A stretch of DNA of 64,000 nt from Dyadobacter chenhuakuii (lineage in GTDB: Bacteria; Bacteroidota; Bacteroidia; Cytophagales; Spirosomataceae), in the NCBI RefSeq assembly GCF_023821985.2, contig NZ_CP098805.1, positions 3,472,001 through 3,536,000 of the forward strand, written 5' to 3'. The position numbers were made by a program, and so were the translations under genes. This document shows, piece by piece, positions 5,773 to 41,554 of the stretch (position 1 is the stretch's first letter; each line of letters begins with the position of its first letter). The notes under the pieces are model-generated. The model did no database searches. It was not told the origin of the DNA and saw only the letters and a list, made by a program, of their open reading frames with translations.

Positions 5773-8094
5773 ATGAAACGGATTGCCATTAGTCTCCTTC
5801 TCTTTTTTACCTCCTTCATTGCACATGCCCAAACCACGGATTGCGCTTGTTTTGTAAAGGGAGTGGTGAAGGATCAGCACACCGGGCAGCCGATCGTTGG
5901 TGCGACGGTTTTGGTGGTTGGACAAAACAGCGGTGTTTTTACAGATGAAAACGGGCGTTACGAGCTGCGGAATCTCTGCCCTGGCGCTTATACATTGGAA
6001 TGCAGGATCATTGGTTACAATCCTTTCCGTGAAAAGCTGGATTTAACTGCTGGTCATGAAGAAAACTTCAATTTGCTGGAACAGGAAGTGCATTTAAAGG
6101 ATGTTGAGATCACGGCACACAGGACCGATGCGCCAAGCTCGCAACCGTTATCGACCATTACAGGAGCCGATCTTGACAAAACGCGCGGGCAAAATCTGGC
6201 AGAAAGTTTGAAAGGAATGACCGGCGTTACATCCCTGCAAACGGGCTCTTCGATATCAAAACCTGTCATTCACGGCCTCCATAGCAACAGGATCCTGATC
6301 ATGAACAATGGTGTGCGGCAGGAAGGCCAGCAATGGGGTTCCGAGCACGCACCCGAAATTGACCCTTTCATAGCGACCCGCTTATCGGTTGTAAAAGGCG
6401 CTGCGGGCGTGCGTTACGGCTCGGATGCGATCGGCGGCGTAATTCTCGTGGAACCGGAAGAGCTTCCTTTCGATAAAGCATTGAGCGGTGAAGTGAATGC
6501 AGTCGGTTTTACCAATGGCCGTCAAGGCGTTTTATCAGGAACATTGCAAGGCAGTATCAAGGGCTTCAAAGGCTTTGGATGGCGGGCGCAGGGAACTATT
6601 AAAAGAGGTGGGAACATCAGAACGCCCGATTATTTCCTGGATAATACGGGCATTAGCGAAAAAAACTTCTCATTGGCAGCAGGTTACCGCAACAAAGGCT
6701 TGGGAATTGATGTCTTTTACAGCCGTTTTGATACGAAAATCGGGATATTTTCCGGCTCCCACATTGGCAGCGTTACGGATTTACTGAATGTGATTGAAAA
6801 CGGCGAGCCGTTTGTAAAATCGGGTTTCAGTTACAACATTGGCCGGCCTAACCAGAATGTGAGCCACGAGCTCATGAAGGCGGAGACACATTATCATTTT
6901 CAAAATGGCAACCGATTTCAATGGACCATTGCGCGGCAATTGAACGATAGGAACGAATTTGATCTGCACCGTCCAAGAAATGACTCCATAGCAGCCCTGA
7001 ACCATCCCGAACTGACATTTAAACTGACCACATTAACCAATGATGTAGTCTGGGATCATAAGCCCATTGCCGGAAAACTTGCCGGGCAGCTTGGAATCAG
7101 CACATTATATCAGTTTAACCTGATGGATGGCAGGCCGCTGATCCCTAATTTCAATCAGTTCAACATTGGGTTTTTCTGGATGGAGCGATATGTGACCAAT
7201 GGCTGGGAACTGGAAGCGGGCGCGCGTTACGATTATCGCTCGCTGACGTCTTTCCGGATCGTGAACCGTGAAAAAGTATCGCAGGATTTCACATTTGCCA
7301 ATTTCTCGGGATTATTGGGAGCAACCCGAAATTTCTCTGAAAAATTCTCGGCAAGACTGAATTTTGGAACGGCATGGCGTGCGCCTAATGTGAGTGAACT
7401 GTTCAGCGACGGCGTGCATCATGGCGCAGCTGCTTTTGAGAAAGGCGATGCTACATTAAAGGCAGAAAAAGCGCTTAATAGCATTGCCAGCGTAAAATAT
7501 GCCAGCCCGAAGTTTACAGCTGAGATCGGCGGTTACTACAACATTATTTCTGATTTTATTTACCTGAAACCACAAGCCGAACCCATTTTGACAGTTCGCG
7601 GCGCCTTTCCATATTTTAAATATACCCAAACAGACGCCAGTTTTAAAGGCATAGACCTTTCGGCGACCTGGGAGTTTATGAAATACACCAGCGTTTCGAG
7701 CAAGTTGAGCTATCTGCGTGTTTATGACCGGCGGAACGACAATTATCTGGTATTAATTCCTGCCAACAGGATCGATAATCAGATCAAATATGAACTGCCG
7801 GAAGATGCGAAATGGCACAAAGCTTATTTTTCAGTTGGAAATTTATTTGTAGCACAGCAGAAGCGTGTGCCGCCGGCTAGTGACTTTCTGGCGCCGCCCA
7901 AGGCCTACTCGCTATGGAATGTACAAATGGGAACGACATTCAATATTTCCGAAAAACAGCAGCTCGAAGTCGGATTGTCTGTTCAAAATCTCTTCAATGT
8001 GGCTTACCGCGACTATCTGAACCGGTTCAGATATTACGCGGATGACATGGGCCGCAATGCATCGTTGCGCCTGAAATGGAAGTTTGGTGCGTGA
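5773..8094 (+). CDS. ZnuD-like TonB-dependent receptor (probable zinc uptake)
   Basis: An outer-membrane receptor of 773 residues from the ATG at 5773; a GTG nine bases upstream is less likely because MKRIAISLLLFFTSFIAHAQ makes a clean signal peptide. Order: signal peptide, carboxypeptidase-regulatory-like domain (about residues 25-110, VKGVVKDQHTGQPIVGATVL), plug domain with SKPVIHGLHSNRILIMNNGV and the segment GSEHAPEIDP before VVKGAAGVRYGSDAIGG, then a 22-strand-type barrel ending RNASLRLKWKFGA. The EHAPEIDP stretch of the plug resembles the zinc receptor ZnuD. The operator upstream, the adjacent Zur-type repressor and the lipoprotein behind it point to zinc (or a similar divalent metal); the substrate is an inference. 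Confidence 0.85.
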   Translation: MKRIAISLLLFFTSFIAHAQTTDCACFVKGVVKDQHTGQPIVGATVLVVGQNSGVFTDENGRYELRNLCPGAYTLECRIIGYNPFREKLDLTAGHEENFNLLEQEVHLKDVEITAHRTDAPSSQPLSTITGADLDKTRGQNLAESLKGMTGVTSLQTGSSISKPVIHGLHSNRILIMNNGVRQEGQQWGSEHAPEIDPFIATRLSVVKGAAGVRYGSDAIGGVILVEPEELPFDKALSGEVNAVGFTNGRQGVLSGTLQGSIKGFKGFGWRAQGTIKRGGNIRTPDYFLDNTGISEKNFSLAAGYRNKGLGIDVFYSRFDTKIGIFSGSHIGSVTDLLNVIENGEPFVKSGFSYNIGRPNQNVSHELMKAETHYHFQNGNRFQWTIARQLNDRNEFDLHRPRNDSIAALNHPELTFKLTTLTNDVVWDHKPIAGKLAGQLGISTLYQFNLMDGRPLIPNFNQFNIGFFWMERYVTNGWELEAGARYDYRSLTSFRIVNREKVSQDFTFANFSGLLGATRNFSEKFSARLNFGTAWRAPNVSELFSDGVHHGAAAFEKGDATLKAEKALNSIASVKYASPKFTAEIGGYYNIISDFIYLKPQAEPILTVRGAFPYFKYTQTDASFKGIDLSATWEFMKYTSVSSKLSYLRVYDRRNDNYLVLIPANRIDNQIKYELPEDAKWHKAYFSVGNLFVAQQKRVPPASDFLAPPKAYSLWNVQMGTTFNISEKQQLEVGLSVQNLFNVAYRDYLNRFRYYADDMGRNASLRLKWKFGA

Positions 8095-8131: not shown

Positions 8132-8686
8132 ATGAAAATGAACCGTAAATTTTCCTGGATGTTGCTTTTGGCTGCGACCGTTTCCTTTACCCAATGCAAA
8201 GATGCCGGCGATGATGTTCAGATCGACGACGAAAACGAATTGATCACTTCTGTGACATTGAAATTTACAGAAGATGGAACGACCAATGTTCAATCATTTT
8301 CGTATAAAGATGCTGATGGGGACGGCGGGAATGCACCAACTCAATTCGACACCATCGCATTAAAACCTAACAAAACGTATACGGTGGCCATTGAGTTACT
8401 GGACGAAAGCAAAACGCCTGCGGATAACATTACGGAGGAAGTTGCTGAGGAGTCGGACGAGCATTTATTTGTGTACACGCCTTCACCATCCGCATTGCTT
8501 ACTTACACTTATGGTGATAAGGATGAGAATAATTTCCCAATCGGGCTAACCGGAAAAGCAGTGACTACTGCCGCAGGATTAGGGAAATTGAAGGTTCAGC
8601 TGCGTCATCAGCCTGACACTAAGAATGGAACGCCAGGACCTGGAAGCGACGATGTAAATCTTGATTTTAACCTGAAAGTGCAGTAA
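8132..8686 (+). CDS. lipoprotein of the metal-uptake locus
   Basis: A 184-residue lipoprotein. The ATG at 8132 starts a short signal, MNRKFSWMLLLAATVSF, followed by the lipobox Cys in FTQCKDAG; an upstream in-frame start overlapping the receptor gene would spoil the signal. The mature part is acidic (ENELITSVTLKFTEDG, KDADGDGGN) and predicted beta-rich. Similar lipoproteins often follow TonB receptors of this type in Bacteroidota and may bind the metal at the cell surface or in the periplasm, which is an inference. The gene is 37 bp behind the receptor and probably shares its transcript. It abuts the convergent repressor gene without any gap. Confidence 0.7.
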   Translation: MKMNRKFSWMLLLAATVSFTQCKDAGDDVQIDDENELITSVTLKFTEDGTTNVQSFSYKDADGDGGNAPTQFDTIALKPNKTYTVAIELLDESKTPADNITEEVAEESDEHLFVYTPSPSALLTYTYGDKDENNFPIGLTGKAVTTAAGLGKLKVQLRHQPDTKNGTPGPGSDDVNLDFNLKVQ

Positions 8687-28976: not shown

Positions 28977-29015
28977 CACGCAAAAGGCAGCTTATCGCCG
29001 TAAAAGGATGTGATC

Positions 29016-30833
29016 ATGAAGCGGCTGGTTTTATTTGTGCTTCTTTGCGGCGCGCTGTCCCGGATTAGTTGGGGGCAAAATGTGGCGTTGGGCCAGTGGG
29101 AAACGCATTTCAACTATCTTTCCGCAAAGCACATTGTACAGGTTAATGATCATATTTTCTGCGCCTCGCATAATGGCCTTTTCAGCATTCATACTGCTGA
29201 CAAACAAGTCAAAATCTGGTCAAAATCGGATGGCCTGACCAGCACCGGCATTGCAAGTTTGGCTTTCGACGAAGAGCAGAATCTTTTGCTTTTAGCTTAT
29301 CGGGATGGCCATGTTGATCTGGTGTATCTGAATGAATCTGCTCAGGCAGAACAAATTAAACCCTGGCCTGTTTTTTCTCAAAATCCCGATTTACCAGAAA
29401 ACAAGGACATTAAGCGCATCATTATCCGGGAAAATCTGGCTTATCTCTGCACCAGCTTTGGTATTGTGGTTTTGGACACCAAAAATCAACAAGTTGATGA
29501 AACTTACCGCTACATAGGCCCCAACGGAATGCAAGTTTCAGTCATTGACATTGCATTTGCTTCGGACTCGCTTTACGCCATAACACCGCAAGGAATGATC
29601 GGCACATCCATGTCGCCCGCTGTTAACCGCCAGTATTTTGCCAATTGGAAAGTCATTGCTACGCCGGCAAAAATAGTGGCCGTTGCGTCAAATGCTTCTC
29701 AGTTATATATAGGTTGTGCAGGGAAGGGTTTGTATTTAAAAGAAAAAGGGAACTGGAAGTCCGTCTTATCATCAGGCAGTCAGGCTTATTTTATATCTGC
29801 ATCCGAAAGCGGACTTACTGTCACATTAGATGATAAGGTCGTTTTATTGGATCCAAAAAACGGCGTAAGCACTTTTACAAGCCCTTTATTTAAGTCACCT
29901 AAGGAGTCTGTCCATACAAATAGTGAGAAAATCTGGGTGGCCGATTCGAAAAACGGCCTGCTCCACAACGTAGGTCAAGCATTTCAATCTTTCACACCAT
30001 TGCAGGCTGACACCACCATTGTAGATAAGAAAGACTCTGTCATTACGGATCTGAACGGTTTGATCTGGACACGGCTTCCTGATTATCTGGGAGGAGGAAT
30101 TTTGGTAAAAAATGTGCAAAACCAGCAACGCGTACTTTCTACGAACGTTGGCAATGGGAGCCTGCCCTCTTCCATCATTAATAATCTGGCCATGGATTTG
30201 GATGGAAACATTTGGTTTGCGAGCGACAGGGGGATCGGGTATTTTGTATCAGAAAATATCCTGAATGCAGCCAGGGTTGATGCGGTTTTGCCAATATACG
30301 GTCAGAGGAAGCTTTTTGCCAACGAGAAATGTACAGCCCTTGCCATTGAGCCGGGTAACCGAAAGTGGATCGGAACGCGGAATGGCCTTTATCTTTTTAA
30401 TGCCGATGGCACGGAGCTTGTCCAAAAATTCACATCAGCAGACAGTCCTTTGCCATCAGATTCAATCCGTGCTTTGGAATTTGATTCAGAAACGGGCAAT
30501 TTGTTTATTGATACCCCGAATGGAATGGTGTCTTACCGCAGCAATGCGACAACCTCAGCTGAAAATTTTTCGAATGTTAAAATTTTCCCAAATCCGGTTC
30601 ATCCTGGTTATGGCGGGTTTGTTGGAGTAACAGGTTTGAAAAATGAATCCATTGTAAAAATCACCGAACTTTCCGGCCGCCTGATCTATGAAACAAAATC
30701 ACAAGGTGGCACTGCGACCTGGAATTTGAATGATTATACGGGCAAGCGTGCCAGAGGAGGGATTTATATGATCCTGGTAGTAACGCCAGATGGCAGTGAA
30801 ACATTTGCCGGAAAATTGGCAGTAATTGATTAA
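29016..30833 (+). CDS. porZ: PorZ, T9SS cell-surface component
   Basis: A 605-residue surface protein (ATG at 29016 behind AAAAGGA; signal peptide ending SWGQ). It consists of two seven-bladed-type propellers with two-component-regulator-propeller repeats (HIFCASHNGLFSIHTADKQV, NIWFASDRGIGYFVSEN, RKWIGTRNGLYLFNADGTE) and a C-terminal sorting-type domain from residue about 520 (VKIFPNPVHPGYGGFV, then GGIYMILVVTPDG). This is the architecture of PorZ, which in Porphyromonas delivers anionic LPS to the sortase PorU at the T9SS. The N-terminal segment LGQWETHFNYLSA is also typical. Identification rests on architecture and motifs. Confidence 0.85.
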   Translation: MKRLVLFVLLCGALSRISWGQNVALGQWETHFNYLSAKHIVQVNDHIFCASHNGLFSIHTADKQVKIWSKSDGLTSTGIASLAFDEEQNLLLLAYRDGHVDLVYLNESAQAEQIKPWPVFSQNPDLPENKDIKRIIIRENLAYLCTSFGIVVLDTKNQQVDETYRYIGPNGMQVSVIDIAFASDSLYAITPQGMIGTSMSPAVNRQYFANWKVIATPAKIVAVASNASQLYIGCAGKGLYLKEKGNWKSVLSSGSQAYFISASESGLTVTLDDKVVLLDPKNGVSTFTSPLFKSPKESVHTNSEKIWVADSKNGLLHNVGQAFQSFTPLQADTTIVDKKDSVITDLNGLIWTRLPDYLGGGILVKNVQNQQRVLSTNVGNGSLPSSIINNLAMDLDGNIWFASDRGIGYFVSENILNAARVDAVLPIYGQRKLFANEKCTALAIEPGNRKWIGTRNGLYLFNADGTELVQKFTSADSPLPSDSIRALEFDSETGNLFIDTPNGMVSYRSNATTSAENFSNVKIFPNPVHPGYGGFVGVTGLKNESIVKITELSGRLIYETKSQGGTATWNLNDYTGKRARGGIYMILVVTPDGSETFAGKLAVID

Positions 30834-31532: not shown

Positions 31533-31701
31533 ATTGCAATGCATATACGTCGGGCTGCGTTAAATACATCACGTGCTGATATAGAGTCCCGCGTTGGTAC
31601 AATTTTTTTAGACACCAAAGGAATCATTTTTACCAATTCTACTAAGTTCCAATATGAAAACCACCTTGCTAACACCAAACTTATCTAATCATTTAGGCAA
31701 A

Positions 31702-32154
31702 ATGAAAGCGTTGCTATTTATCTTCTTGTTTTCATTTGTGCTTTTAGGATGCAAAGAAGACGATGTTGATCCGGATCTGACAAAGGATTTTGTCGGAACC
31801 TGGAAGGGCGAAGTAAAACAAGAGAAAGGATACGAATATAGCTCCGACTGGGAAATTTCGAAGGCGTCTGAGAATGCTGTAAAGGTTGTGTCCACTTACA
31901 GGTTTGTCTCCAAAGACCCGAAATACACGTCGCAGACTGTTGTTACTCCCATAGAAAACATCACGCTTTCAACCACTTTGGCAAATAGCGTAGTCTTAAA
32001 TTTAACTGATGAAGAAATCGTACCAGGTGATGTCCTGATGATTAAAGGGGTCGGAATCGTTTCTGGAAAAACACTAACGTTCTCTTCTACCGCAACGTCT
32101 AAAAAGACTGGCAGGGTAGAAACTCCACCAGTTCAAATATTCACAAAACAGTAG
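31702..32154 (+). CDS. small lipoprotein of unknown function
   Basis: A 150-residue lipoprotein. The ATG at 31702 gives a compact signal peptide with lipobox (FSFVLLGCKEDD); an in-frame ATG at 31654 would add 16 residues. After an acidic linker the mature protein begins KDFVGTWKGEVKQE, the opening of a lipocalin-like beta-barrel such as those common in Bacteroidota lipoproteins (GTWKG pattern). Ligand unknown. It lies 170 bp downstream of udk and upstream of a second lipoprotein and the lasso-peptide genes, but a hairpin and 83 bp separate it from the next gene. Confidence 0.6.
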   Translation: MKALLFIFLFSFVLLGCKEDDVDPDLTKDFVGTWKGEVKQEKGYEYSSDWEISKASENAVKVVSTYRFVSKDPKYTSQTVVTPIENITLSTTLANSVVLNLTDEEIVPGDVLMIKGVGIVSGKTLTFSSTATSKKTGRVETPPVQIFTKQ

Positions 32155-32237: not shown

Positions 32238-32936
32238 ATGAAAAAACATTTAAACTGGGTTATAGTGCCCATGATTATACTTCTCGCTTCCTGCGAAAAG
32301 TCAGATCGCCCCTCCGTTGACCCCTATCAATATGTGCCAACGTCCTTGGGCCAGTTTGTAATTTCAGATATTGAAGAGCAGATTTATTCTGCCGGTAAAG
32401 ATCAACCGGTAGTTAAAAAATGGCAGGAAAAAGACCAGGTTATAAAAAAATCGGTTGATAGTGAATCGATTACTACGCTTATTTTTTCGAGATCATTGCG
32501 AACTTCCGAAACAGCGCCCTGGGAAAAATTAAAGGAATACAGCGTTAAAATATATCCGGATAAGGTTCTAACTACTGTTGACAATAGAACGGATATGAAT
32601 TTGATTTTTCCTCTCAACGGACAAACTGAGTGGAATGGAAACACTTATCACAGTGCAGACCCGCAGAAATACCATTACGAATCTCTTAATAAGCCTGCAA
32701 CAGTCTCTAAACTTTCGTTTGACAATTCAATAACGGTTGTCGAACGTGAGGACTCCTCAGCAATCAATCAATATATAGGCATCAAAAAGTATGCACTTGG
32801 AGTTGGCCTGATTTTTGATGATCAAATAGCCTATGAGTATTGTCAAACTGAAGAATGCTTCGCAAGTGACATCAAAAAAATTGAGTCAGGCTACCATAGA
32901 GTTAAAATGGTATCTCAGTTTGGTACAGTTAAGTAA
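32238..32936 (+). CDS. lipoprotein of unknown function upstream of the lasso genes
   Basis: A 232-residue lipoprotein (signal MKKHLNWVIVPMIILLASC, lipobox Cys19). The mature part begins DPYQYVPTSLGQFVISDIEE, a pattern known from uncharacterised Bacteroidota lipoproteins that start just after a short linker, and is predicted to be mainly beta structure; there are two further cysteines in YCQTEECF near residue 210. No enzyme motif is recognised. Base composition is visibly more A/T-rich than the udk side. It lies 108 bp before the lasso precursor. A relation to the peptide (for instance immunity or surface reception) is only a possibility. Confidence 0.6.
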   Translation: MKKHLNWVIVPMIILLASCEKSDRPSVDPYQYVPTSLGQFVISDIEEQIYSAGKDQPVVKKWQEKDQVIKKSVDSESITTLIFSRSLRTSETAPWEKLKEYSVKIYPDKVLTTVDNRTDMNLIFPLNGQTEWNGNTYHSADPQKYHYESLNKPATVSKLSFDNSITVVEREDSSAINQYIGIKKYALGVGLIFDDQIAYEYCQTEECFASDIKKIESGYHRVKMVSQFGTVK

Positions 32937-32982
32937 GATTTACAACAGACATTAGCAGCTTATACTTTTTTTTATTATCTTT

Positions 32983-33011
32983 TTGAAAATTGACAAAAAT
33001 ACTTACCTTTA
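32983..33011 (+). promoter_or_regulatory. possible promoter of the lasso precursor gene
   Basis: TTG at 32983-32985, 18 nt, then TACCTTTA at 33004-33011, which matches TAnnTTTG at seven of eight positions. It ends 33 bp before the precursor ATG. The region is very A/T-rich, so chance similarity is possible. Confidence 0.4.
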
Positions 33012-33044
33012 CAACGGACTATTAAAAAATCTAACAAAACAGTT

Positions 33045-33206
33045 ATGAAAACAGTTAATATGCACTCTACACAGACGAAAAAAAATTATGCTAAGCCTAG
33101 CCTTAACAAGCTTGGAAGTGTAAGTAAACTGACGAAGGGTAAGTTGGGAAGCGGATTCGACGGATCAGGACAACCAGCCTTCCGCGATGATTTGGGAGAG
33201 AGCTAG
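33045..33206 (+). CDS. probable lasso-peptide precursor
   Basis: A 53-codon gene, too short for routine ORF lists. Residues 15-30 read YAKPSLNKLGSVSKLT, which fits the lasso leader signature Y-x2-P-x-L-x3-G-x5-T recognised by the B1/RRE protein; Thr30 is then the conserved penultimate leader residue, and cleavage after Lys31 gives a 22-residue core. The core begins GKLGSGFD, so Gly1 can form the macrolactam with Asp8, the common 8-residue ring. A 14-residue tail ending DDLGES follows, with Phe15 and Arg16 as possible plugs. The next gene, 31 bp later, encodes the cyclase expected for this class. Expression and processing are inferred. Confidence 0.85.
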   Translation: MKTVNMHSTQTKKNYAKPSLNKLGSVSKLTKGKLGSGFDGSGQPAFRDDLGES

Positions 33207-33237
33207 TCAAGGCATGGCTTCTACCATTTCTTAGTCG

Positions 33238-35154
33238 GTGTTACTAGAAGGAATTATCCATTATCATAAAAATGTCGACTTGATTCAACATTTTTATGAT
33301 AATGGATTTTTTTTTGATAATTGGTTTGTTGCGGAAAAGGGCTTAAAGTCTCGCACTGATAGTTACTATTCCTTTTTTATGGGTTACCAGGATGAAGTCA
33401 AGGCGGATTTTGTCACAAACTCAGCTGCACCTTCTGCAAACTCTTACAACGATAACATCCGCAGTCTTTCTGACTCTCAGGTTGCAATTGCAGCATGGTT
33501 TGATGAATCCACCAAAAGCTTTTCATTGTTTAGGGAGCTATTCGGAAAAATCCCCCTGTTCTACATTCACATCCCGGATACATTTTTTGCATTTTCAACC
33601 AGCCTTACGCGCTTAATTGCGTTAAAAGACGTTCAACCACATCTCGCGGTTGATCAAAGCAGAATCCCTGCTTACATCTCTTTAAACGGTCATGATTACA
33701 CATCCAACGCATCTTCAACATTTTTTACCAAAATTAAATGTGTCCTGCCTGGTCACTTATTAACGGTGAACAGCCAAAATGTGAGCACGAGGCCACATGT
33801 ACAGCTCAACCCCGGTAAATGGGCGCACCTTACGTCAACGGAGTATAACGAAGAACTGGCTCGACTGTTCAAGGGTTCGGTTTCCTATGCTTCGAAAGAT
33901 TGCTCCATTTTAGGCTCTCACCTGAGTGGCGGACTGGATTCTTCGTCTGTTAGCTCGGCGCTGAGATATCTATATCCGGATAAGGCAATTCACACTTTTC
34001 ACATTCCCTCAACGAGCAAAGAGGCTGACGAACGGGAGTATGCCGAGGCCGTTGCAAATCATATCAGTTCAAAGCAACATTTTATCGATCCGGCCAATGA
34101 CAATTTAGCATCATTACAACTTGCTACTGAGCTATATGGCCAGCCAGAGAATGGATTTCTTTCGCCGGCAACGAATCACAAAACGCTTAAAACGGCGCAA
34201 AGCTTAGGCTGCGACGTTCTGCTTAATGGCTTTGGAGGGGATTCGGTCATTGGGGATGGATCAGAGTTGGTTATTCAGTCATTCCATCAAAAAGATTACG
34301 AACTATTCCAGGAGCTACTTAAAAAGAGAGTCAATTATTTTTCACGGCAGCGCCTGCATCCTTCCTGGGATGAATATGATTTTGATAAAAAGTATCATCT
34401 GGTTCTACAGAACGCCCTATACAGAAGGTTTTCTGCTTCGTCCGGCTCGGTTTCGAAACTGCTGCAATTATATCGGGAAGTGTCCCCTCATTTAAATATT
34501 TCATTAAGTTACTTCTTCGGCAGGGCGCTGAAAAGTTTGCTGCTTCGCACGGCTGACATGAATACAAAGCGCCCGGGCTCTATTATCCGAAGCGATCTCC
34601 GCGCTGATCCTGGTTCAGTGGAACCAAACTTTCCGCAATCCCTGCGAGGCGATCTTCCAGCGAATTTTCAGGAATTGCTGAATGATGTATTCCATCCACA
34701 AGTCATCAGGACGCAAGAACAAGACTTCGTTTTGAGTTGCCACTATGGCGTAAGTAACAGGGCGCCTTTCATGGACAAAGAGCTTTTTGAGCTCAATATG
34801 GCCATCCCCAATATTCTCAAATTCGGAGATGGCATCGGCCGTGCTCATTTCAGGGAATCAATGAAAGGAATCTTGATCGATAAGGTCAGGACCCGGGGCA
34901 ATAAAGCCACTGTCAGTTCGAGTGAGGGAGAAAAAATGGCGCTGGACCTGTACCGCGAATCACAAGATTACCTTGATGATTCGCAGGAAGTATGGATGTA
35001 TGTAGACAGAGCTAAGTTTCAGGAGCAAGTTAAAATTGCGCAAAACAGCAAAATCCCGTTCGCGCAAAAAACCACTACATACGCTCTCATTACGCGCACC
35101 ATATCGCTGTCTGTCTGGCTGAATTGGCTAAAAAGCAAAGGATACAATAGCTAG
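33238..35154 (+). CDS. lasso-peptide cyclase (asparagine-synthetase-like, protein C)
   Basis: A 638-residue member of the asparagine-synthetase B family. It starts with GTG at 33238, because a TAG stands two codons upstream and no ATG occurs until residue 48. The N-terminal domain is glutaminase-like but lacks the nucleophile Cys2 of true glutamine-dependent enzymes. The ATP-PPi domain has the PP-loop SGGLDSS at residues 230-236 and a second phosphate-site segment LLNGFGGDSVIGDG. In lasso pathways this enzyme adenylates the ring Asp/Glu side chain and closes it on Gly1. Position directly behind the precursor supports this. It is convergent with the C25 peptidase gene, only four bases away. 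Confidence 0.82.
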   Translation: MLLEGIIHYHKNVDLIQHFYDNGFFFDNWFVAEKGLKSRTDSYYSFFMGYQDEVKADFVTNSAAPSANSYNDNIRSLSDSQVAIAAWFDESTKSFSLFRELFGKIPLFYIHIPDTFFAFSTSLTRLIALKDVQPHLAVDQSRIPAYISLNGHDYTSNASSTFFTKIKCVLPGHLLTVNSQNVSTRPHVQLNPGKWAHLTSTEYNEELARLFKGSVSYASKDCSILGSHLSGGLDSSSVSSALRYLYPDKAIHTFHIPSTSKEADEREYAEAVANHISSKQHFIDPANDNLASLQLATELYGQPENGFLSPATNHKTLKTAQSLGCDVLLNGFGGDSVIGDGSELVIQSFHQKDYELFQELLKKRVNYFSRQRLHPSWDEYDFDKKYHLVLQNALYRRFSASSGSVSKLLQLYREVSPHLNISLSYFFGRALKSLLLRTADMNTKRPGSIIRSDLRADPGSVEPNFPQSLRGDLPANFQELLNDVFHPQVIRTQEQDFVLSCHYGVSNRAPFMDKELFELNMAIPNILKFGDGIGRAHFRESMKGILIDKVRTRGNKATVSSSEGEKMALDLYRESQDYLDDSQEVWMYVDRAKFQEQVKIAQNSKIPFAQKTTTYALITRTISLSVWLNWLKSKGYNS

Positions 35155-35158
35155 TGCC

Positions 35159-38100
35159 TCATTTGATGATCACAACCTTCCCCGTTACAGTCTTGTCTTC
35201 CTCTGAGTTAAGATATTTAAATATAACCTGGTAAATGTAAAGTCCATCGGAAACGTAATTTGGCTTCCAATACCATTCGTTTGTACCGGATAACGGCGCT
35301 GTGCGTTCCCCTTCATCCATAAGCTTGCCCGCAATGTTAAAGACTTTCCAATGAATACTCGCTGCCGGTTGCTTGGAATTCAATTGTGTTTCAAACCGAA
35401 TGTAATCAACGGCTGGGTTAGGACTTGCAATCACCTTCACATTTTCATCATTGTCGCCTATTAAAAACTGAATTGTGAAAGGCGATGCAATGCTATTTCC
35501 AGCATCATCACTTGAAATCACGAGCATTTCGTAGTTTCCGTCTTCGGCAAGCAGATCCGGGTCTAAGTTTAATTGTATAACGTGATCTGAAATATTTTTC
35601 AGATCCATCTTCCACTTGTCCGAAAAATTAACCCGCTCAAATTCACAGCTATTGTCTTCGCAGGTCTTTAAGAAAATACTGATCCGGGCGGTATCAGCTG
35701 TCAAAACCCGGTCATCCTGTAAAGTCAGTGTTACTTGTGGTTTAGGGCTGATCTGCTCACCATTTTTGATCGTCCGATCATTGAATGTAACATCCAGCAA
35801 CGGCGCGATAATGTCTTTACCACTCGTTAGCGGGTAATAACTTTCATTTTTAGCAATTTCCCAATCAACCAGCAGTTCAGCCGTGTTGTTCTGCTTGTTC
35901 AGTTCCTTTAATGTATTCTGGGGATCAATTTTAACAACGATGCTTTGCAATTCCTTTTGATTCTGTACATCCAGGATCAATGTGTCGCTGTAAGCAAACC
36001 CTTGCAAAGTTTGCGCAGACTTGGTTTGTGAATCCTTATAAATGTAGGTAATCTCCACCGGGACTTTTTCAGCCTTTACAAATCGGCCCAGATTGCGAAT
36101 GAGCAGGTTGACCTTTAATTTGGAAGAACTGGCTATCGTCTTGTCCGGACTTTCAGAAAATATCTTTATTCCATTATCCGCACTAATGGCATAGTCGGAA
36201 CTTGCCACAGAAACCAGCTTTAACGCAGGGTCACCTTGTAAAATAGACTGATGTATATTAGCCACGCTGTACATTCCTGAATCTTCCGCTAGAATTTTCC
36301 TGGCAACAATCCGCTGAATATCACCAATTGGAAGATTATAGCTGGTTGAATCCGTGAACATGGATGTGTACAACTGACTTAAATATTTCGAGGAAGGTCC
36401 GACGAAGCTTTCAAAAGAATTGGCAATGACGGCAATGGCCCCACCATTCGGAGCAAGTAACCAGTCCATTGATAAGGTGTATCTGTCGGTAGCTGCTGGA
36501 TTTGGATTAAATCGTCCAGCGAAGATATTTCCAACCCCACATCCATTAAAATACATCATTGGATACATTCCCTTGTTGTTATAACCACGGTTTGCATCTG
36601 TAATGTATCCCATATTAAGATCTGTTACGGTGGTCGAGCCGTGTCCGAAGTAGGTTATCAGCCCAACTCCGTCATTAACCTCAGGCGTAATGTTCACATA
36701 TTCAACCTCGCCGATTGCCTGCTGCTTCACAAATGGGATTACTTTTCCACCAACCACACCATTCACAACTTTCGGCTCCAATGCCGCTAACAGATTTTTC
36801 AATTGAGTAATTTCCCCAACTGTTTTGCCACCATTCAAATGCAAAACATCCTTCTTCCAGCCAAAATCGCTGGTTGCACCTTGCTCGTAGTCTTTCACCT
36901 TTTGCAGGTAATCCAGAACATTCTGATTCGTCACCGCACTTAACCGGCCTATGGAAACAGCGGGTACGTCTTTCGGCACCCCGCCCAGGCCTTCTACCAA
37001 AAGTATATCCGAACCGGGATAGCCCACAGAGGGAACTTCATCAGGCAGTTCACGTATCATCCTTTCGTTGAACGTAATACTCCTTCCGATCAGATGTAAA
37101 TATTTCCCACTGGTGCCGCTCGATACCATGTAATCCACAAATCTGCGGATTGCAACCGGGCTTGGCTCGCCATAGTTGAACTGATTGTAGACATCTTTAA
37201 TGTTCACTACAATAGGAACAAACCCACCGCCCGCAGCCGAAGCACGGTATGCCGCATACTTATTGGCTCCATCCAGTAAATTTTCACTGGTTAGGATAAT
37301 GTAGTTTGGATTGGTAGGATATTTAGCTGAGAATTTAACTTCCGTAACCTTCGCCTTTTCAATAGTTTTAGCTTCACTCGTGACAAGCAGGTTAAGCGTC
37401 CGCGCAGAAGAATGCGGAACCATTAAGTTGCCAGGCTGTCCGTTGATTACTTTTGGCTTGTTAACATTAGATATATCAAGAATAGTAGCACCGCCAGGTG
37501 CATTCGCTATATTCAGCCTGTTTATTGGTTGAGCTGATTTGGCAAGAGAAAATTCAAAACTCTTCTTGTCCTTCATATCCGTGAGCTGCGGATATGAAAG
37601 TAAATAGTAAGTCAGCGAGTAACCGTCTGCTGAGTTGCTGCCTACTGCCTTTAAATTCAGTATTATTTTATTATCAGCCGTCAGATCTTCCGGTTCCAGG
37701 TCAAAGGAAAATTCTGATCCTGAAAAGCCGTTGTTATTCAGTGCACGCACAAGCCGTAGTGACTGTGCCGTTTTTCCTACCCGAATTTCAATATTCTTAT
37801 TGCCGGGTGTCCGGCCATGCAAGAGCAGCTTTAATCTGGGTTTGATGCCGCTTTCTTTATAGTAATTTGTTAGCTGTAGTGTATAGTCTGTGGCTTTGCC
37901 TTCCATGGAAGACTTTCCAGTTTTGCTGGCTCCTATCTCGAAATAACTGTTAAAAAAGGCTGGTCTGTAAAAGGGAATAGTTCCTAACGAGTATTCATCT
38001 TTATACAAGCTTAAATTGGTGCCTGTATGAAATGTTGTCACCGGAACATTGGTGTCAACATTGCTCGTAATCTGCTCAGCCCTCATTCCCGCCTTGTCGC

Positions 38101-38491
38101 CTACTGTAAGAAAATAGGCACTTTCATCGGAATACAAGCTATAATACGGGTTAATACGCGAACTCATCGGGCGATACAACAAGGAGTCACTTGCACCGTC
38201 ATTGGGCACGGCGTAAAAGACAATTTCTTTATTTTCGGTACTGATGATTGCGACCTCTTCTCCCCTATGCCATAGTTGCAGTTTACCTGCATCGCCCACC
38301 GGGAAACTAGTCGGTAAAAGTGAAAACGGCAATTTGTGAATCCCTTTCTGTGTTACGCCGATCTTTACATAAGGCTTGCCATACACAATCCAATTGTTAG
38401 TATATGGTGCCCCCCATTGAGCGTTGACGGTTTGTAACATTCCGGATGTTACAAGTAAGAATGTGTATAGAAAAATTTTACCTAATCTCAT
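35159..38491 (-). CDS. C25-family (gingipain-like) cysteine peptidase, T9SS cargo
   Basis: A protein of about 1110 residues from ATG 38491 (a longer frame starts upstream); signal peptide ending TVNAQ. An N-terminal beta-rich pro-region (KPYVKIGVTQKGIHKLPFSL, LWHRGEEVAIIS, FYAVPNDGASDSLLYR) is followed by the peptidase domain with His in LITYFGHGSTTV (about residue 614) and Cys in YFNGCGVGNIF (about residue 650), the C25 dyad. Next come Ig-like and CARDB-like modules and a C-terminal T9SS sorting domain (VIASPNPAVDYIRF ... VTGKVVIIK). It is probably secreted and anchored or released outside. Its relation to PorU is family-level only. It is the second gene of a tandem pair. Confidence 0.83.
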   Translation of the reverse strand: MRLGKIFLYTFLLVTSGMLQTVNAQWGAPYTNNWIVYGKPYVKIGVTQKGIHKLPFSLLPTSFPVGDAGKLQLWHRGEEVAIISTENKEIVFYAVPNDGASDSLLYRPMSSRINPYYSLYSDESAYFLTVGDKAGMRAEQITSNVDTNVPVTTFHTGTNLSLYKDEYSLGTIPFYRPAFFNSYFEIGASKTGKSSMEGKATDYTLQLTNYYKESGIKPRLKLLLHGRTPGNKNIEIRVGKTAQSLRLVRALNNNGFSGSEFSFDLEPEDLTADNKIILNLKAVGSNSADGYSLTYYLLSYPQLTDMKDKKSFEFSLAKSAQPINRLNIANAPGGATILDISNVNKPKVINGQPGNLMVPHSSARTLNLLVTSEAKTIEKAKVTEVKFSAKYPTNPNYIILTSENLLDGANKYAAYRASAAGGGFVPIVVNIKDVYNQFNYGEPSPVAIRRFVDYMVSSGTSGKYLHLIGRSITFNERMIRELPDEVPSVGYPGSDILLVEGLGGVPKDVPAVSIGRLSAVTNQNVLDYLQKVKDYEQGATSDFGWKKDVLHLNGGKTVGEITQLKNLLAALEPKVVNGVVGGKVIPFVKQQAIGEVEYVNITPEVNDGVGLITYFGHGSTTVTDLNMGYITDANRGYNNKGMYPMMYFNGCGVGNIFAGRFNPNPAATDRYTLSMDWLLAPNGGAIAVIANSFESFVGPSSKYLSQLYTSMFTDSTSYNLPIGDIQRIVARKILAEDSGMYSVANIHQSILQGDPALKLVSVASSDYAISADNGIKIFSESPDKTIASSSKLKVNLLIRNLGRFVKAEKVPVEITYIYKDSQTKSAQTLQGFAYSDTLILDVQNQKELQSIVVKIDPQNTLKELNKQNNTAELLVDWEIAKNESYYPLTSGKDIIAPLLDVTFNDRTIKNGEQISPKPQVTLTLQDDRVLTADTARISIFLKTCEDNSCEFERVNFSDKWKMDLKNISDHVIQLNLDPDLLAEDGNYEMLVISSDDAGNSIASPFTIQFLIGDNDENVKVIASPNPAVDYIRFETQLNSKQPAASIHWKVFNIAGKLMDEGERTAPLSGTNEWYWKPNYVSDGLYIYQVIFKYLNSEEDKTVTGKVVIIK

Positions 38492-38507
38492 GTCGATATA
38501 AGCGAAA

Positions 38508-38544
38508 CGGCTAAGAAAGTACCTGATAAGCACTTCCTTAGCCG
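38508..38544 (-). promoter_or_regulatory. hairpin between the two C25 peptidase genes
   Basis: Two 13-bp arms (CGGCTAAGAAAGT and ACTTCCTTAGCCG) pair with one mismatch around an 11-nt loop in the 66-bp gap. There is no T-run on the minus strand after it, so partial termination or mRNA processing that sets the ratio of the two peptidases is more likely than full termination. Confidence 0.45.
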
Positions 38545-38557
38545 CGAATTTAATTGA

Positions 38558-41554
38558 TTATTTCTTAACTACTTTTTTGTGATACAAGTCGCCGTTCTCA
38601 GTCAGTATTTCAACAATATATTCTCCCGAAGCAAGATTCGAAACATCGATTTTCAGGCCGGTTTGGTTGGACTTGATTGCTCTTCCCTTCACATCTATCA
38701 GATTCCAGCTTTTGATTGCTACCGGTGCATCCAATGCTATCTCCGCTACATCTGAAACAGGATTTGGAGAAATGACCAGGAATTTGCTGACTTCCCTTGA
38801 AACAGACACCAATCTTGATTGCGTCACTTTTCCCTTCACCAACTTACCGTTGATCGTTACATCACCATCAACTTGTTTAAGTCTGTAATAACTCGTTCCA
38901 CTTAAAGGTTTAAGGTCCTGGAAAACATAGTCAGACTGTACTTCTGTGGTTCCTTTACCCTCAACCATTCCAATGGATTCGAAGTTTTTCCCATTGTAAC
39001 TTCTTTCAACCAGGAAATGGCTGTTATTACTTTCTGATGCAGTTTTCCAAGTTACCTTAACCTGATCCTGCTCAGCATGCGCGTTGAAAGAAATAAGGTT
39101 AACCGGCAGCGCACCCTCAGTGATTAGCACGCGTAATGATGGGTCTCCTTGCAGGATCACTTGATGCACATTGGCGCGATCGGCATCGTAATAAGACATT
39201 GTCCGCCCATTCTGAGCTGGATTATACGAATAGTTTTTCTCTAGCTTCGTCTGCAGCGCTACATTTTTAAGAATATTTCCAATGGCTGGTCTCGTTCCGT
39301 CCGCTGTTGAAAATATCTGCTCGTAAAGTTTATCCAGATATTGGTTGGATGTAGACGCATAGGCATCCCAGGTATTTCCAAAAACAATTACCGCGCCTTT
39401 GTTAGGCGCCAGCAGCCAGTCCAGTGACATAGGACGGACAAGAATCGTAGGAAGTGAGCCAAATTCGCCATTACGCCCACTGAACAGGTTGTTTACTCCA
39501 CACCCATTGTAGAAAAGGATTGGAAACTTGTTTGTGTCCTTATAGCCCTTGCTCGGATTTGAAACATAGCCAGCATTGTAATCTGTTTTATCTACACCGC
39601 CGTGTCCGAAATAAGTAATCATACCCACTCCTTCTACACCCGGAACCTCACCATTCAGCTCGGGGGCCAATGTCATTTCGATAACATTATTGGAAGCAAC
39701 CGTTTTTAATCTGGGAAGAACCGCTCCTGAAAAAGGTGCAGACGATACTACATTTGAAATACCATTTAAATAATTAGAAAACTGAGTGATTTCATTGTTA
39801 GTCTTCCCGCCATTCATATGAACCACGTTTTTCCGCCAAGCCACATCCAGTTGGCTTTCGTAGGTCACAACCTTTTCCAAATAATCATAAACCTGTTGAT
39901 TTACCGTAGCCGATATTCTACCTACCGGAATAGCGGGAACATCATCCTGCACGCCGCCCAGGCCGTCTACAAGCAAAAGATCTGATCCCGGATAACCAAC
40001 AGTCGGCACCTCGTCAGGAATTTCTCTTATGGAACGCTCGAAGTAAGTGATTGATCGGCCTATCAGCAACAGATATTTGTCCAATTGTCCGTCAGAGACC
40101 ATAAAATCAACAAATCTTCTTATAGCAACCGGGCTTGGCTCTCCATAATTGAATTGGTTATAAACGTCGTCAATGTTAATGACCAAAGGTTTGAACTTCC
40201 TGCCTGGCGTCGTTGTGCTACGATACTTTGCATAATCGGTTGCGGATGTGTTCAGAGAATTGCTGCAAATAATCAGGTAATCATTGGCAGCGGGAGATAA
40301 GCTTGTAAACTTAACCGTTGAAATTTTTGAGGTGGGAACTGTTGTTACAGTACTGGCCGCCAACAATTTCAAGGCCTTATCGTCACGATTAATGACCAGC
40401 GCCGAAGGTGTTCCCGACACGATCTGCGGTGCACTCGGATTCGAAATGTTATAAACTTTGGTTCCTGCTGGTGCATTTGCTATGGAAAGTGTTGACTGGG
40501 ATCCTGCTACAACGGCTGGGAAGGTAAGCTCATAAGAGGTTAAGCCTTGCATGTTAATCGCTTGCTCGTATTCAACTGTAAAATATGAGATCGAAAAACC
40601 ACTGCCATCGCTTCCGATTTTGGTAGACTTGAAACCCAATGTTCCGTTCCCGCTCGCATCAAAGTCTGTCGGTTCGAGATTAAATGTGTAATCGTAATCA
40701 TTCAACTCATTGACGTTCAATGTCCCGACAGATCTCAAAGTGCCGGGCGTTTTACCGACGTAGATACCTGCGATCGTAGTTCCGGTCCTGGATTTGATAT
40801 GGATCGTAATTTTTTTGGCCAAAGCGCCAACAGGCGATTTTAATTGAAAAGAGAACGGAACCGGCACATAAGAGTTGGTATATGCTACTGGCTTTGGATT
40901 AGAAGTTTGAATCGCAGTTCCCACAAACTCGTCCATGATGGATGACCCGGTGGTTTGCTTACCTTCTTCAAAATAGCTGTTCAGTGCACTTGGTCTGTAA
41001 AAAGGTATCGTTGAGTGCGTGTGCTCATTCTGATATAGTTTCAAATCTGTCTGAACCTGAGCTGTTAATGCAACAGCGCCAGGATTTGCTGCCACGGCCG
41101 GTGCAGCAGCCCGAAGGCCGTTATCACCAGAGCTAACTGTCAAAAAGTAAGTACTTTGGTCAGAATAAATGCTGTAATAAGGATTTTTTCTGGTTGTGCT
41201 GAATCGATAAAGAAGCGCATCCGAAGCTCCGTCGTTCGGAACGCCGTAAAACAAAATCTCCGATGCATCGGCTTTGATGATCGCAATCTGCTGACCGCGA
41301 TACCACATCTGAATTTTGTCCTTATTTGCATTTTTAAAAGCGTCCGGCAAGTCGTTCACATTGATTTTGTGTATGCCTTTCGCAGTGACACCAATTTTAA
41401 CCCAGGGCTGGCTATACTTTCCTGCCAACCACTCGTTCCCGTTCACCCCGCTCCACTTCTGAGCATTGGCCCCACCGATCGTAAGAAAGAGGAAAAAGAC
41501 TATTTTGGAGAAATTCAACAAGCGAAGTGTGTAAAAAGTAAAGTTTGCTTTCAT
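38558..41554 (-). CDS. C25-family (gingipain-like) cysteine peptidase, T9SS cargo
   Basis: A 998-residue paralogue of the gene downstream. Signal peptide ending GGANAQ, pro-region with QPWVKIGVTAKGIHKINVND, MWYRGQQIAIIK and FYGVPNDGASDALLYR, peptidase domain with His in MITYFGHGGVDK (about residue 649) and Cys in LFYNGCGVNNLF (about residue 684). After the domain comes a fibronectin-like module (LISFNAHAEQDQVKVTWKTA) and a T9SS sorting domain (LVISPNPVSDVAEIAL ... YHKKVVKK). It lacks the CARDB-like modules of its neighbour. First gene of the pair on the minus strand; 471 bp upstream hold no other gene. Confidence 0.85.
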   Translation of the reverse strand: MKANFTFYTLRLLNFSKIVFFLFLTIGGANAQKWSGVNGNEWLAGKYSQPWVKIGVTAKGIHKINVNDLPDAFKNANKDKIQMWYRGQQIAIIKADASEILFYGVPNDGASDALLYRFSTTRKNPYYSIYSDQSTYFLTVSSGDNGLRAAAPAVAANPGAVALTAQVQTDLKLYQNEHTHSTIPFYRPSALNSYFEEGKQTTGSSIMDEFVGTAIQTSNPKPVAYTNSYVPVPFSFQLKSPVGALAKKITIHIKSRTGTTIAGIYVGKTPGTLRSVGTLNVNELNDYDYTFNLEPTDFDASGNGTLGFKSTKIGSDGSGFSISYFTVEYEQAINMQGLTSYELTFPAVVAGSQSTLSIANAPAGTKVYNISNPSAPQIVSGTPSALVINRDDKALKLLAASTVTTVPTSKISTVKFTSLSPAANDYLIICSNSLNTSATDYAKYRSTTTPGRKFKPLVINIDDVYNQFNYGEPSPVAIRRFVDFMVSDGQLDKYLLLIGRSITYFERSIREIPDEVPTVGYPGSDLLLVDGLGGVQDDVPAIPVGRISATVNQQVYDYLEKVVTYESQLDVAWRKNVVHMNGGKTNNEITQFSNYLNGISNVVSSAPFSGAVLPRLKTVASNNVIEMTLAPELNGEVPGVEGVGMITYFGHGGVDKTDYNAGYVSNPSKGYKDTNKFPILFYNGCGVNNLFSGRNGEFGSLPTILVRPMSLDWLLAPNKGAVIVFGNTWDAYASTSNQYLDKLYEQIFSTADGTRPAIGNILKNVALQTKLEKNYSYNPAQNGRTMSYYDADRANVHQVILQGDPSLRVLITEGALPVNLISFNAHAEQDQVKVTWKTASESNNSHFLVERSYNGKNFESIGMVEGKGTTEVQSDYVFQDLKPLSGTSYYRLKQVDGDVTINGKLVKGKVTQSRLVSVSREVSKFLVISPNPVSDVAEIALDAPVAIKSWNLIDVKGRAIKSNQTGLKIDVSNLASGEYIVEILTENGDLYHKKVVKK

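Follow-up and report, generated by a model that had tools for sequence, protein, structure and literature searches.

The question raised by this stretch of the Dyadobacter chenhuakuii chromosome (NZ_CP098805.1, positions 3,472,001 to 3,536,000, forward strand; these 64,000 nucleotides are called the window below) is how a lasso peptide could be produced from a locus in which a candidate precursor gene (A) and a cyclase gene (C) stand together with no leader-processing genes around them. The original prediction considered three possibilities, namely, that the B proteins act in trans, that another protease is used, or that the locus is eroded. Comparison with the rest of the genome (G000), with 48 Dyadobacter genomes and with 222 genomes of the family makes it very probable that the A-C pair is one half of a complete lasso pathway and that an operon encoding B1, B2, an HPr-kinase-like protein (K) and a nucleotidyltransferase-like protein (NT), 590 kb away, is the other half.

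The precursor and the cyclase

Gene A (33045..33206, forward strand) encodes a predicted lasso precursor of 53 amino acids (leader, residues 1-31; core, residues 32-53; GKLGSGFDGSGQPAFRDDLGES). The leader matches the lasso signature through Y15, P18, L20, G24 and T30, with the Y-x2-P-x-L motif and the T at position -2 that are looked for in lasso precursors, and the model NF033521 (lasso_leader_L3) scores A at 21.2 bits (cut-off 19), so the signature initially read in this 53-codon open reading frame (ORF) stands. The same model matched 22 of 22 precursor alignment rows, the window's included, at E <=0.1 rather than at its curated cut-off. The core-coding stretch (33138..33203, forward strand) specifies Gly1, Lys2, Ser5 and Asp8, the first and last of these as previously pointed out, and predicts an 8-residue macrolactam ring followed by a 14-residue tail with a terminal Ser. 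Asp8 lies within the range of positions 7-9 given for the lasso macrolactam ring (PMC8498205; the papers named by such numbers are cited, here and below, from part of their text), where an Asp or Glu is expected. By the lasso rule, the leader would be cleaved after T(-2)-K(-1) and the ring would link Gly1 to Asp8; the monoisotopic mass computed for the 22-residue core minus one water is 2177.998, which corresponds to an [M+2H]2+ ion at 1090.006, or at 1129.989 if one phosphate is added. In front of A, a possible promoter (32982..33011, forward strand) was read by eye as TTTG-N18-TACCTTTA, which we take to be the Bacteroidota-type consensus.

The precursor family was matched in all 48 Dyadobacter genomes, each of which also keeps the cyclase-like gene (the match in G032 contains a stop), and in the sister genome G001, one of the 53 codons of A differs synonymously and none nonsynonymously; the small ORF is therefore more than a chance reading frame. 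From ahead of the promoter through A to the start of the cyclase (32938-33240, about 302 bases), we counted 3 mismatches and 1 gap against G001, and, for comparison, 176 of 1911 bases differ in the cyclase gene, so that A may be under an extra constraint at the nucleotide level. The precursor search gave no further match in G000. Two other genomes, G014 and G047, hold a second precursor-cyclase pair (L254, with A at 8357, and L255, with A at 5941), with no PorU2 gene (see below) in the fetched stretch and with cores that end in Trp-Asp-Pro-Cys.

Gene C (33238..35154, forward strand) begins with GTG 31 bp downstream of A and encodes 638 amino acids. As originally described, the protein resembles asparagine synthetases, contains an SGGLDSS loop and lacks Cys2. 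The asparagine-synthase domain PF00733 is matched at E 6.8e-30; the best NCBIfam model is the lasso cyclase NF033535 (184.6 bits, E 3e-54), and the asparagine synthase model TIGR01536 scores lower (101.7 bits). In a tree of 71 proteins, made by a quick method from 50 of 68 loci (mixed-label loci and proteins outside 560-720 amino acids were left out) and labelled with our own models, all 21 synthetase-like rows, together with the AsnB-like protein of G000, formed one fully supported clade that excludes C. The window cyclase groups with lasso cyclases of its family in a 21-member clade, to which a cyanobacterial cyclase with B1 and B2 nearby is the sister row. Thus, C appears to be an asparagine-synthetase-like cyclase of the lasso type, its score lying below the curated cut-off. 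G000 contains just one further match to C, a weak one (E 9e-6) that groups among the asparagine synthetases. A cyclase was matched in 48 of 48 Dyadobacter genomes, with an in-frame TAA in that of G013 (L146/L258), and between G000 and G001, 158 of 637 codons differ, 104 synonymously and 54 nonsynonymously. No sequence match of C to a solved structure was found at E 0.001.

The distant leader-processing operon

The genome search for RiPP (ribosomally synthesized and post-translationally modified peptide) recognition element (RRE) and transglutaminase-like genes that had been suggested for this locus gave a single answer. In G000 (6.08 Mb, 99.8% complete), the B2-type and PqqD searches each gave one match; the two genes adjoin at C1:2.914 Mb, on the same chromosome as the cyclase and 590 kb away from it. 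Hence, the description of the pair as lacking leader-processing genes holds for its neighbourhood and fails for the genome: both B1 (RRE/PqqD) and B2 (transglutaminase-like protease), which a lasso pathway requires, are encoded at another locus, and the usual, albeit not essential, grouping of all lasso genes in one cluster is not found. B2 passes the lasso-B2 model NF033537 (83.4 bits, cut-off 33), and the best NCBIfam match of B1 is the lasso PqqD chaperone NF033536. Closely packed behind B1-B2 are K and NT, the latter an NTP_transf_5 gene. The domain matches of K are weak and below cut-off, and its G-x-P-G-A-G-K-S-T and D-D motifs were read by eye; an HPr-kinase-like protein with a nucleotide-binding motif, as K appears to be, characterizes paeninodin-type phosphorylated lasso peptides. 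Against G001, synonymous and nonsynonymous changes number 8 and 3 of 89 codons in B1, 21 and 7 of 146 in B2, and 49 and 15 of 311 in K. Because the changes in A, C, B1, B2 and K are mostly synonymous, there is no sign of decay.

A, C, B1 and B2 were each matched in 48 of 48 Dyadobacter genomes. B1, B2 and K are collinear, with NT, in all 30 fetched Dyadobacter B loci, 27 of which have aldh upstream. In 21 of the 48 genomes, C and B2 are on one contig, where at least 360 kb always separates them (this minimum comes from the second, weaker cyclase of G047); 15 of the 21 distances are 559-694 kb. Outside Dyadobacter, 68 family genomes have a listed match to B2 (above the Pfam cut-off) or C (>=139 bits) and 50 have both; in 26 of these 50, C and B2 are within 15 kb and the same gene set is present, typically in the order PorU2, lp2, C, NT, K, B2, B1, A, cargo, where PorU2 is a sortase-like peptidase of the type IX secretion system (T9SS), lp2 is a lipoprotein gene and cargo is a gene for a protein with a T9SS sorting domain. 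The split arrangement, with B1-B2-K-NT at the same aldh/ftsH site, recurs in three more genera (G096, G151, G173), and in a fourth (G155, L170), B1-B2 occupies that site with C about 7 kb beyond; B2 alone was undetected in the cluster of some Spirosoma-group loci (for example, L173, L185 and L187) and was found elsewhere in the genome. Given this recurrence in other genera, working in trans seems to be old and repeated in the family. Among 55 non-Dyadobacter cyclase loci (drawn from 69 cyclase matches of >=139 bits, with the duplicates L075 and L076 left out), A was found in 46, PorU2 in 43, lp2 in 41, B1 in 32, NT in 30, B2 in 26 and K in 25; four further loci (L260-L263) have PorU2 and lp2 in three cases. 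Beyond the family, the precursor model matched 1 outside genome in a class-level sample of 396 genomes, and this match (L269) has no cargo gene in its 1.5-kb flanks.

Gene content therefore supports B proteins acting in trans, and the split pathway appears, on good support, to be intact. Erosion, in which the locus is a relic that has lost its B genes, would fit the presence of only A and C locally and the stops or broken frames of a few relatives (the G013 cyclase; the G032 precursor and PorU2), but with the four core genes kept in 48 of 48 genomes and mostly synonymous changes, it is extremely unlikely. If another protease replaced B2 and the distant B1-B2 served something else, the 590-kb distance would be accounted for; however, neither another lasso-type cyclase nor a second precursor was found in G000, and relatives have these genes directly alongside C and A, which leaves this option very unlikely. 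A second complete lasso cluster owning B1-B2 was rejected, there being no further match to a lasso-type cyclase or precursor in G000. As for the 638-residue protein being an ordinary asparagine synthetase and the small ORF incidental, the PF00733 domain speaks for it, but the missing Cys2, the higher score of the lasso cyclase model, the position outside the synthetase clade and the conservation of the small ORF reduce this to a negligible prospect. Neither of the two outcomes that the original prediction had named as refuting it was observed.

Several observations weigh against the split pathway. The pathway, its reactions and its product are deduced here from genes, conservation, co-occurrence and motifs; C, with its 184.6 bits, misses the NF033535 cut-off of 525, and B1 is under that of NF033536 (64.8 of 80). 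The two halves are on different contigs in 27 of the 48 Dyadobacter genomes, so that 21 distances could be measured, and each of K, NT, B1 and B2 is missing from many of the 55 non-Dyadobacter cyclase loci. An exporter gene (D) was not noticed by eye at either locus, no dedicated exporter search having been made; an ABC exporter is frequent, not universal, in lasso clusters, and an ABC ATPase ORF at L033 920-1597 is presumably FtsE-like. Finally, a C-terminal Ser, the residue modified by paeninodin-type kinases, is present in 10 of 80 precursor rows, the window's included, and so is not conserved.

In the proposed split pathway, B1 would bind the leader at Y-x2-P-x-L, K would probably phosphorylate the precursor, likely at the ring Ser, B2 would cut after T(-2)-K(-1), and C would activate Asp8 and close the Gly1-Asp8 ring around the tail. 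The closest known systems are those of paeninodin, pseudomycoidin and bsf (Bradymonas), with which the Dyadobacter genes share A, C, split B1 and B2, an HPr-kinase-like K, a nucleotidyltransferase-like gene, the leader motif Y-x2-P-x-L and T(-2). Tailoring genes stand beside the lasso genes in these systems, a kinase in paeninodin and a kinase plus a nucleotidyltransferase in pseudomycoidin and bsf (PMC9266682, PMC10368454); BsfK reportedly phosphorylates Ser3 of the core (PMC10368454), and PsmN reportedly adds a hexose to the phospho-Ser (PMC9266682). The kinds of genes and the chemistry here are those of phosphorylated lasso peptides, and with BsfK as a precedent, the ring Ser is the likely kinase site. 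The Dyadobacter pathway differs from the known systems in its division between two loci 590 kb from each other, in the lack of a conserved C-terminal Ser, in the ring motif of the relatives (K-x-G-S-x-x-D) and in the PorU2, lp2 and T9SS cargo genes that accompany it; nor was an exporter noticed.

Sortase genes, cargo pairing and core motifs

Convergent with C lies a gene (35159..38533, reverse strand) for a PorU2-type T9SS sortase-like C25 peptidase of 1124 amino acids (NF052324, 895.7 bits, cut-off 450; PF01364, E 7e-68), in which a Cys/His dyad, judged by eye, is presumably present; no sequence match to a solved structure was found at E 0.001. Next to it, a second PorU2-type C25 protein of 998 amino acids (38558..41554, reverse strand; NF052324, 617.6 bits) carries a C-terminal T9SS type A sorting domain (CTD; TIGR04183, 33.2 bits, cut-off 23) and is the CTD-bearing gene of the Dyadobacter locus. 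Both are above the cut-off of NF052324, which is named 'putative type IX secretion system sortase PorU2'. The original prediction had noted the convergent C25 peptidase and missed both its identity as a PorU2-type sortase and the wide sharing of the lp2 family. In 47 of 48 Dyadobacter genomes, a PorU2 gene was found no more than about 2 kb from the main A-C locus, a count composed of 41 of 50 loci plus six main loci added later (G032 in pieces); of the misses, the G045 locus is truncated by the end of its contig, and two are extra loci of G004. In G032 (L248), the PorU2 genes are in several pieces.

Outside Dyadobacter, 41 of the 51 precursors in machinery loci directly adjoin a T9SS cargo gene (the duplicates L072-L076 are left out of the pairing, passenger and core counts). 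At least 102 of the 222 family genomes have a precursor match, with up to 8 each among the matches listed. We selected, among the matches listed, 44 precursors away from C and B2 matches and from contig ends (L319 and L335 have B1 nearby, and L306, L307, L341 and L343 are near PorU2 or lp2); 35 of the 44 have a cargo gene within 400 bp, which in 34 of these pairs is within 100 bp of the model match. Our own CTD model was seeded with cargo proteins adjoining precursors, and NCBIfam models run on proteins chosen by position served as an independent check: among 35 upstream ORFs of 200-700 amino acids that do not run off the locus (others were dropped), TIGR04183 matched 28 at E <=0.001 and PF18962 matched 20. 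As a baseline, our model was positive for 1 of 76 ORFs of >=250 amino acids in the window and five other stretches, the single positive being the window's own CTD-bearing PorU2; this figure is a little too low because our model misses PorZ, which TIGR04183 picks up. The passenger parts of the cargo proteins are diverse, with 102 of 703 pairs alike at E 1e-5, 9 passenger groups (rows L177 and L206 were emptied by trimming) and ice-binding domains in some, whereas in 702 of 703 pairs the final 190 residues are similar, partly by construction because the model selected those proteins. The common feature of the cargo genes is the sorting domain, the part that a sortase reads. One Spirosoma-group locus (L304, G187:C8:1217000-1232500) holds four precursors with cargo genes in 8 kb, with four more matches elsewhere.

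The cores share a ring motif. K-x-G-S-x-x-D starts 41 of 41 cargo-paired cores of the machinery loci (Asp7 in 41 of 41) and 3 of 10 unpaired ones; a fourth unpaired core (L218), which was parsed wrongly, also contains it. In Dyadobacter, one residue mostly precedes the motif (the window core has GKxGS-x2-D8); variants exist, and some of them agree poorly with the usual ring rule (in L155, for example, the first Asp is at 10). All 80 precursor rows have Gly-Ser somewhere in core residues 1-9. A Lys is present in 61 of 61 cores from loci where PorU2 was seen and is missing from 3 of the 18 others, a difference for which the Fisher test (p 0.010) ignores relatedness among rows that are not independent; some genomes appear twice in the core table (L068/L150, L069/L155), and the 4-kb Dyadobacter loci cannot, at that length, be relied on to include PorU2. 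Cores of the GGTGGS-x-D clade have a Lys in the tail instead of in the ring. A Lys side chain as the ring nucleophile is not favoured because four Dyadobacter cores of this type (L149, L153, L157 and L158) lack the ring Lys yet keep Gly1 and Asp8. A lasso ring that starts with Lys is not known to us. Observed first ring residues include Gly, Cys, Ser and Ala, with Asn as a new case (PMC12670498).

Upstream of A, lp2 (32238..32936, forward strand) encodes a 232-residue lipoprotein without matches in Pfam (at E 0.1) or NCBIfam (at E 1). Its family occurs in 6 of 8 Dyadobacter loci of one comparison; Dyadobacter main loci without lp2 include L068, L069 and L257. The window also encodes PorZ (29010..30833, forward strand; NF052228, 377.9 bits, cut-off 260), a T9SS protein named for the delivery of anionic lipopolysaccharide (A-LPS), with a homologue in 7 of 8 Dyadobacter loci and in none of 25 other loci. 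Between PorZ and lp2, the small lipoprotein lp1 (31654-32154) has no relative in the annotated loci and weakly matches a BSAP immunity protein model (E 0.005). As exclusive markers of lasso loci, lp2 and PorU2 were rejected since both occur in family genomes without a lasso-type cyclase, and we therefore claim only that lasso loci carry their own copies. In a tree of 81 PorU2 proteins (quick method), 18 of 20 proteins not linked to lasso genes group in a single clade; the remaining two, paralogues from Dyadobacter, are nested within the linked clade of that genus, and a lasso-linked PorU2 (L213) is sister to the unlinked clade. In the genus g21 (G133:C17, G135:C10, G136:C14, G137:C14, G139:C223), a weaker asparagine-synthetase-like match is found some 11-14 kb away from a PorU2 gene, and its distance to lp2 in G135 is about 3 kb; these genomes have no B2 match and possibly hold a related but different system.

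Possible role of the peptide

The conserved association of the pathway with PorU2, lp2 and T9SS cargo genes suggests a function at the cell surface, in concert with type IX secretion. In Porphyromonas gingivalis, PorU removes the type A CTD from the cargo, with which it then forms a thioester; this can be resolved by amines, including A-LPS, primary amines, amino acids and short peptides (PMC10202324). The Dyadobacter locus resembles this PorU/PorZ attachment complex in its sortase-like C25 peptidase with Cys and His and in the presence of PorZ; it differs in that PorU2 belongs to a separate NCBIfam family (NF052324) for which no solved relative was found by sequence, and in that the amine donor proposed here is a lasso peptide. 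As a tentative possibility, the lasso peptide could be a cell-surface partner of T9SS, such that PorU2 would trim the CTD and join the cargo C-terminus to a free amine on the lasso, either instead of anionic LPS or alongside it. Because the N-terminal amine of a lasso is consumed in the ring, the free amine would be a Lys side chain, either that of the K-x-G-S-x-x-D ring or one in the tail. The kinase and nucleotidyltransferase would then link the lasso to a carrier in the envelope, lasso synthesis would serve as a protein-anchoring chemistry, and one shared machinery would serve many scattered cargo-precursor pairs. In Dyadobacter, the partner would be the CTD-bearing PorU2 at 38558-41554.

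Alternatively, and plausibly although short of probable, the product could be a free lasso peptide, that is, a secreted antimicrobial or signal, with the T9SS genes as neighbours by chance linkage or shared regulation. To our knowledge, lasso peptides of known role are free molecules; moreover, 12 of the 55 family lasso loci are without PorU2, some of them with other cores, and the PorU2 and lp2 families are also found apart from lasso genes. A free product leaves unexplained, however, why 35 of 44 precursors distant from the cyclase and B2 still adjoin a cargo gene and why 28 of 35 immediate upstream proteins match TIGR04183, against the 1 of 76 baseline of our own model; the separation of lasso-linked PorU2 from most unlinked PorU2 in the tree and the unnoticed exporter, for which the search was by eye, likewise speak against it. 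Lasso peptides can inhibit proteases, and PorU2 stands beside most cyclases, largely as separate lineages, so the lasso might instead be a ligand or inhibitor that controls this C25 cysteine peptidase as a sortase latency factor without being its substrate; this is unlikely, as it does not account for the cargo pairing, which also occurs away from PorU2 and with differing passenger domains. Joining of cargo to the lasso by PorU2 fits most of the data on role and is unproven. It is strained by the fact that the Dyadobacter precursor itself adjoins no separate cargo gene, as a free product would allow, and assigning the partner in Dyadobacter is the weakest joint in extending conjugation to the window.

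Among the matches listed in open-access PMC, we found no paper that links a lasso peptide to type IX secretion or T9SS, and no precedent for the separation of the pathway halves. There, a search for lasso peptides with Dyadobacter or Spirosoma surfaced only a paper on another RiPP, RiPP with type IX secretion and PorU gave, by title, only c-di-AMP work, and the name PorU2 was not found among the matches listed for PorU2 or type IX secretion. The RiPP-lipoprotein hybrid DybA/DybH of Dyadobacter crusticola is a likeness from the same genus, in that a RiPP is routed to the cell envelope; unlike the pathway of the window, it uses MNIO chemistry and the lipoprotein pathway (PMC12636315).

Genome-mining tools that expect lasso genes in a single cluster could overlook or misinterpret a pathway whose halves are 590 kb apart, as well as precursors distant from their enzymes. 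Because all 48 species genomes examined keep it, the pathway is probably part of the ordinary physiology of the genus. If the T9SS link is functional, it would be a new role for a RiPP, the fixing or marking of surface proteins, and would explain why the pathway is retained in each of the 48 Dyadobacter genomes. It also makes testable which amine acceptor is used by PorU-like sortases in Bacteroidota other than Porphyromonas.

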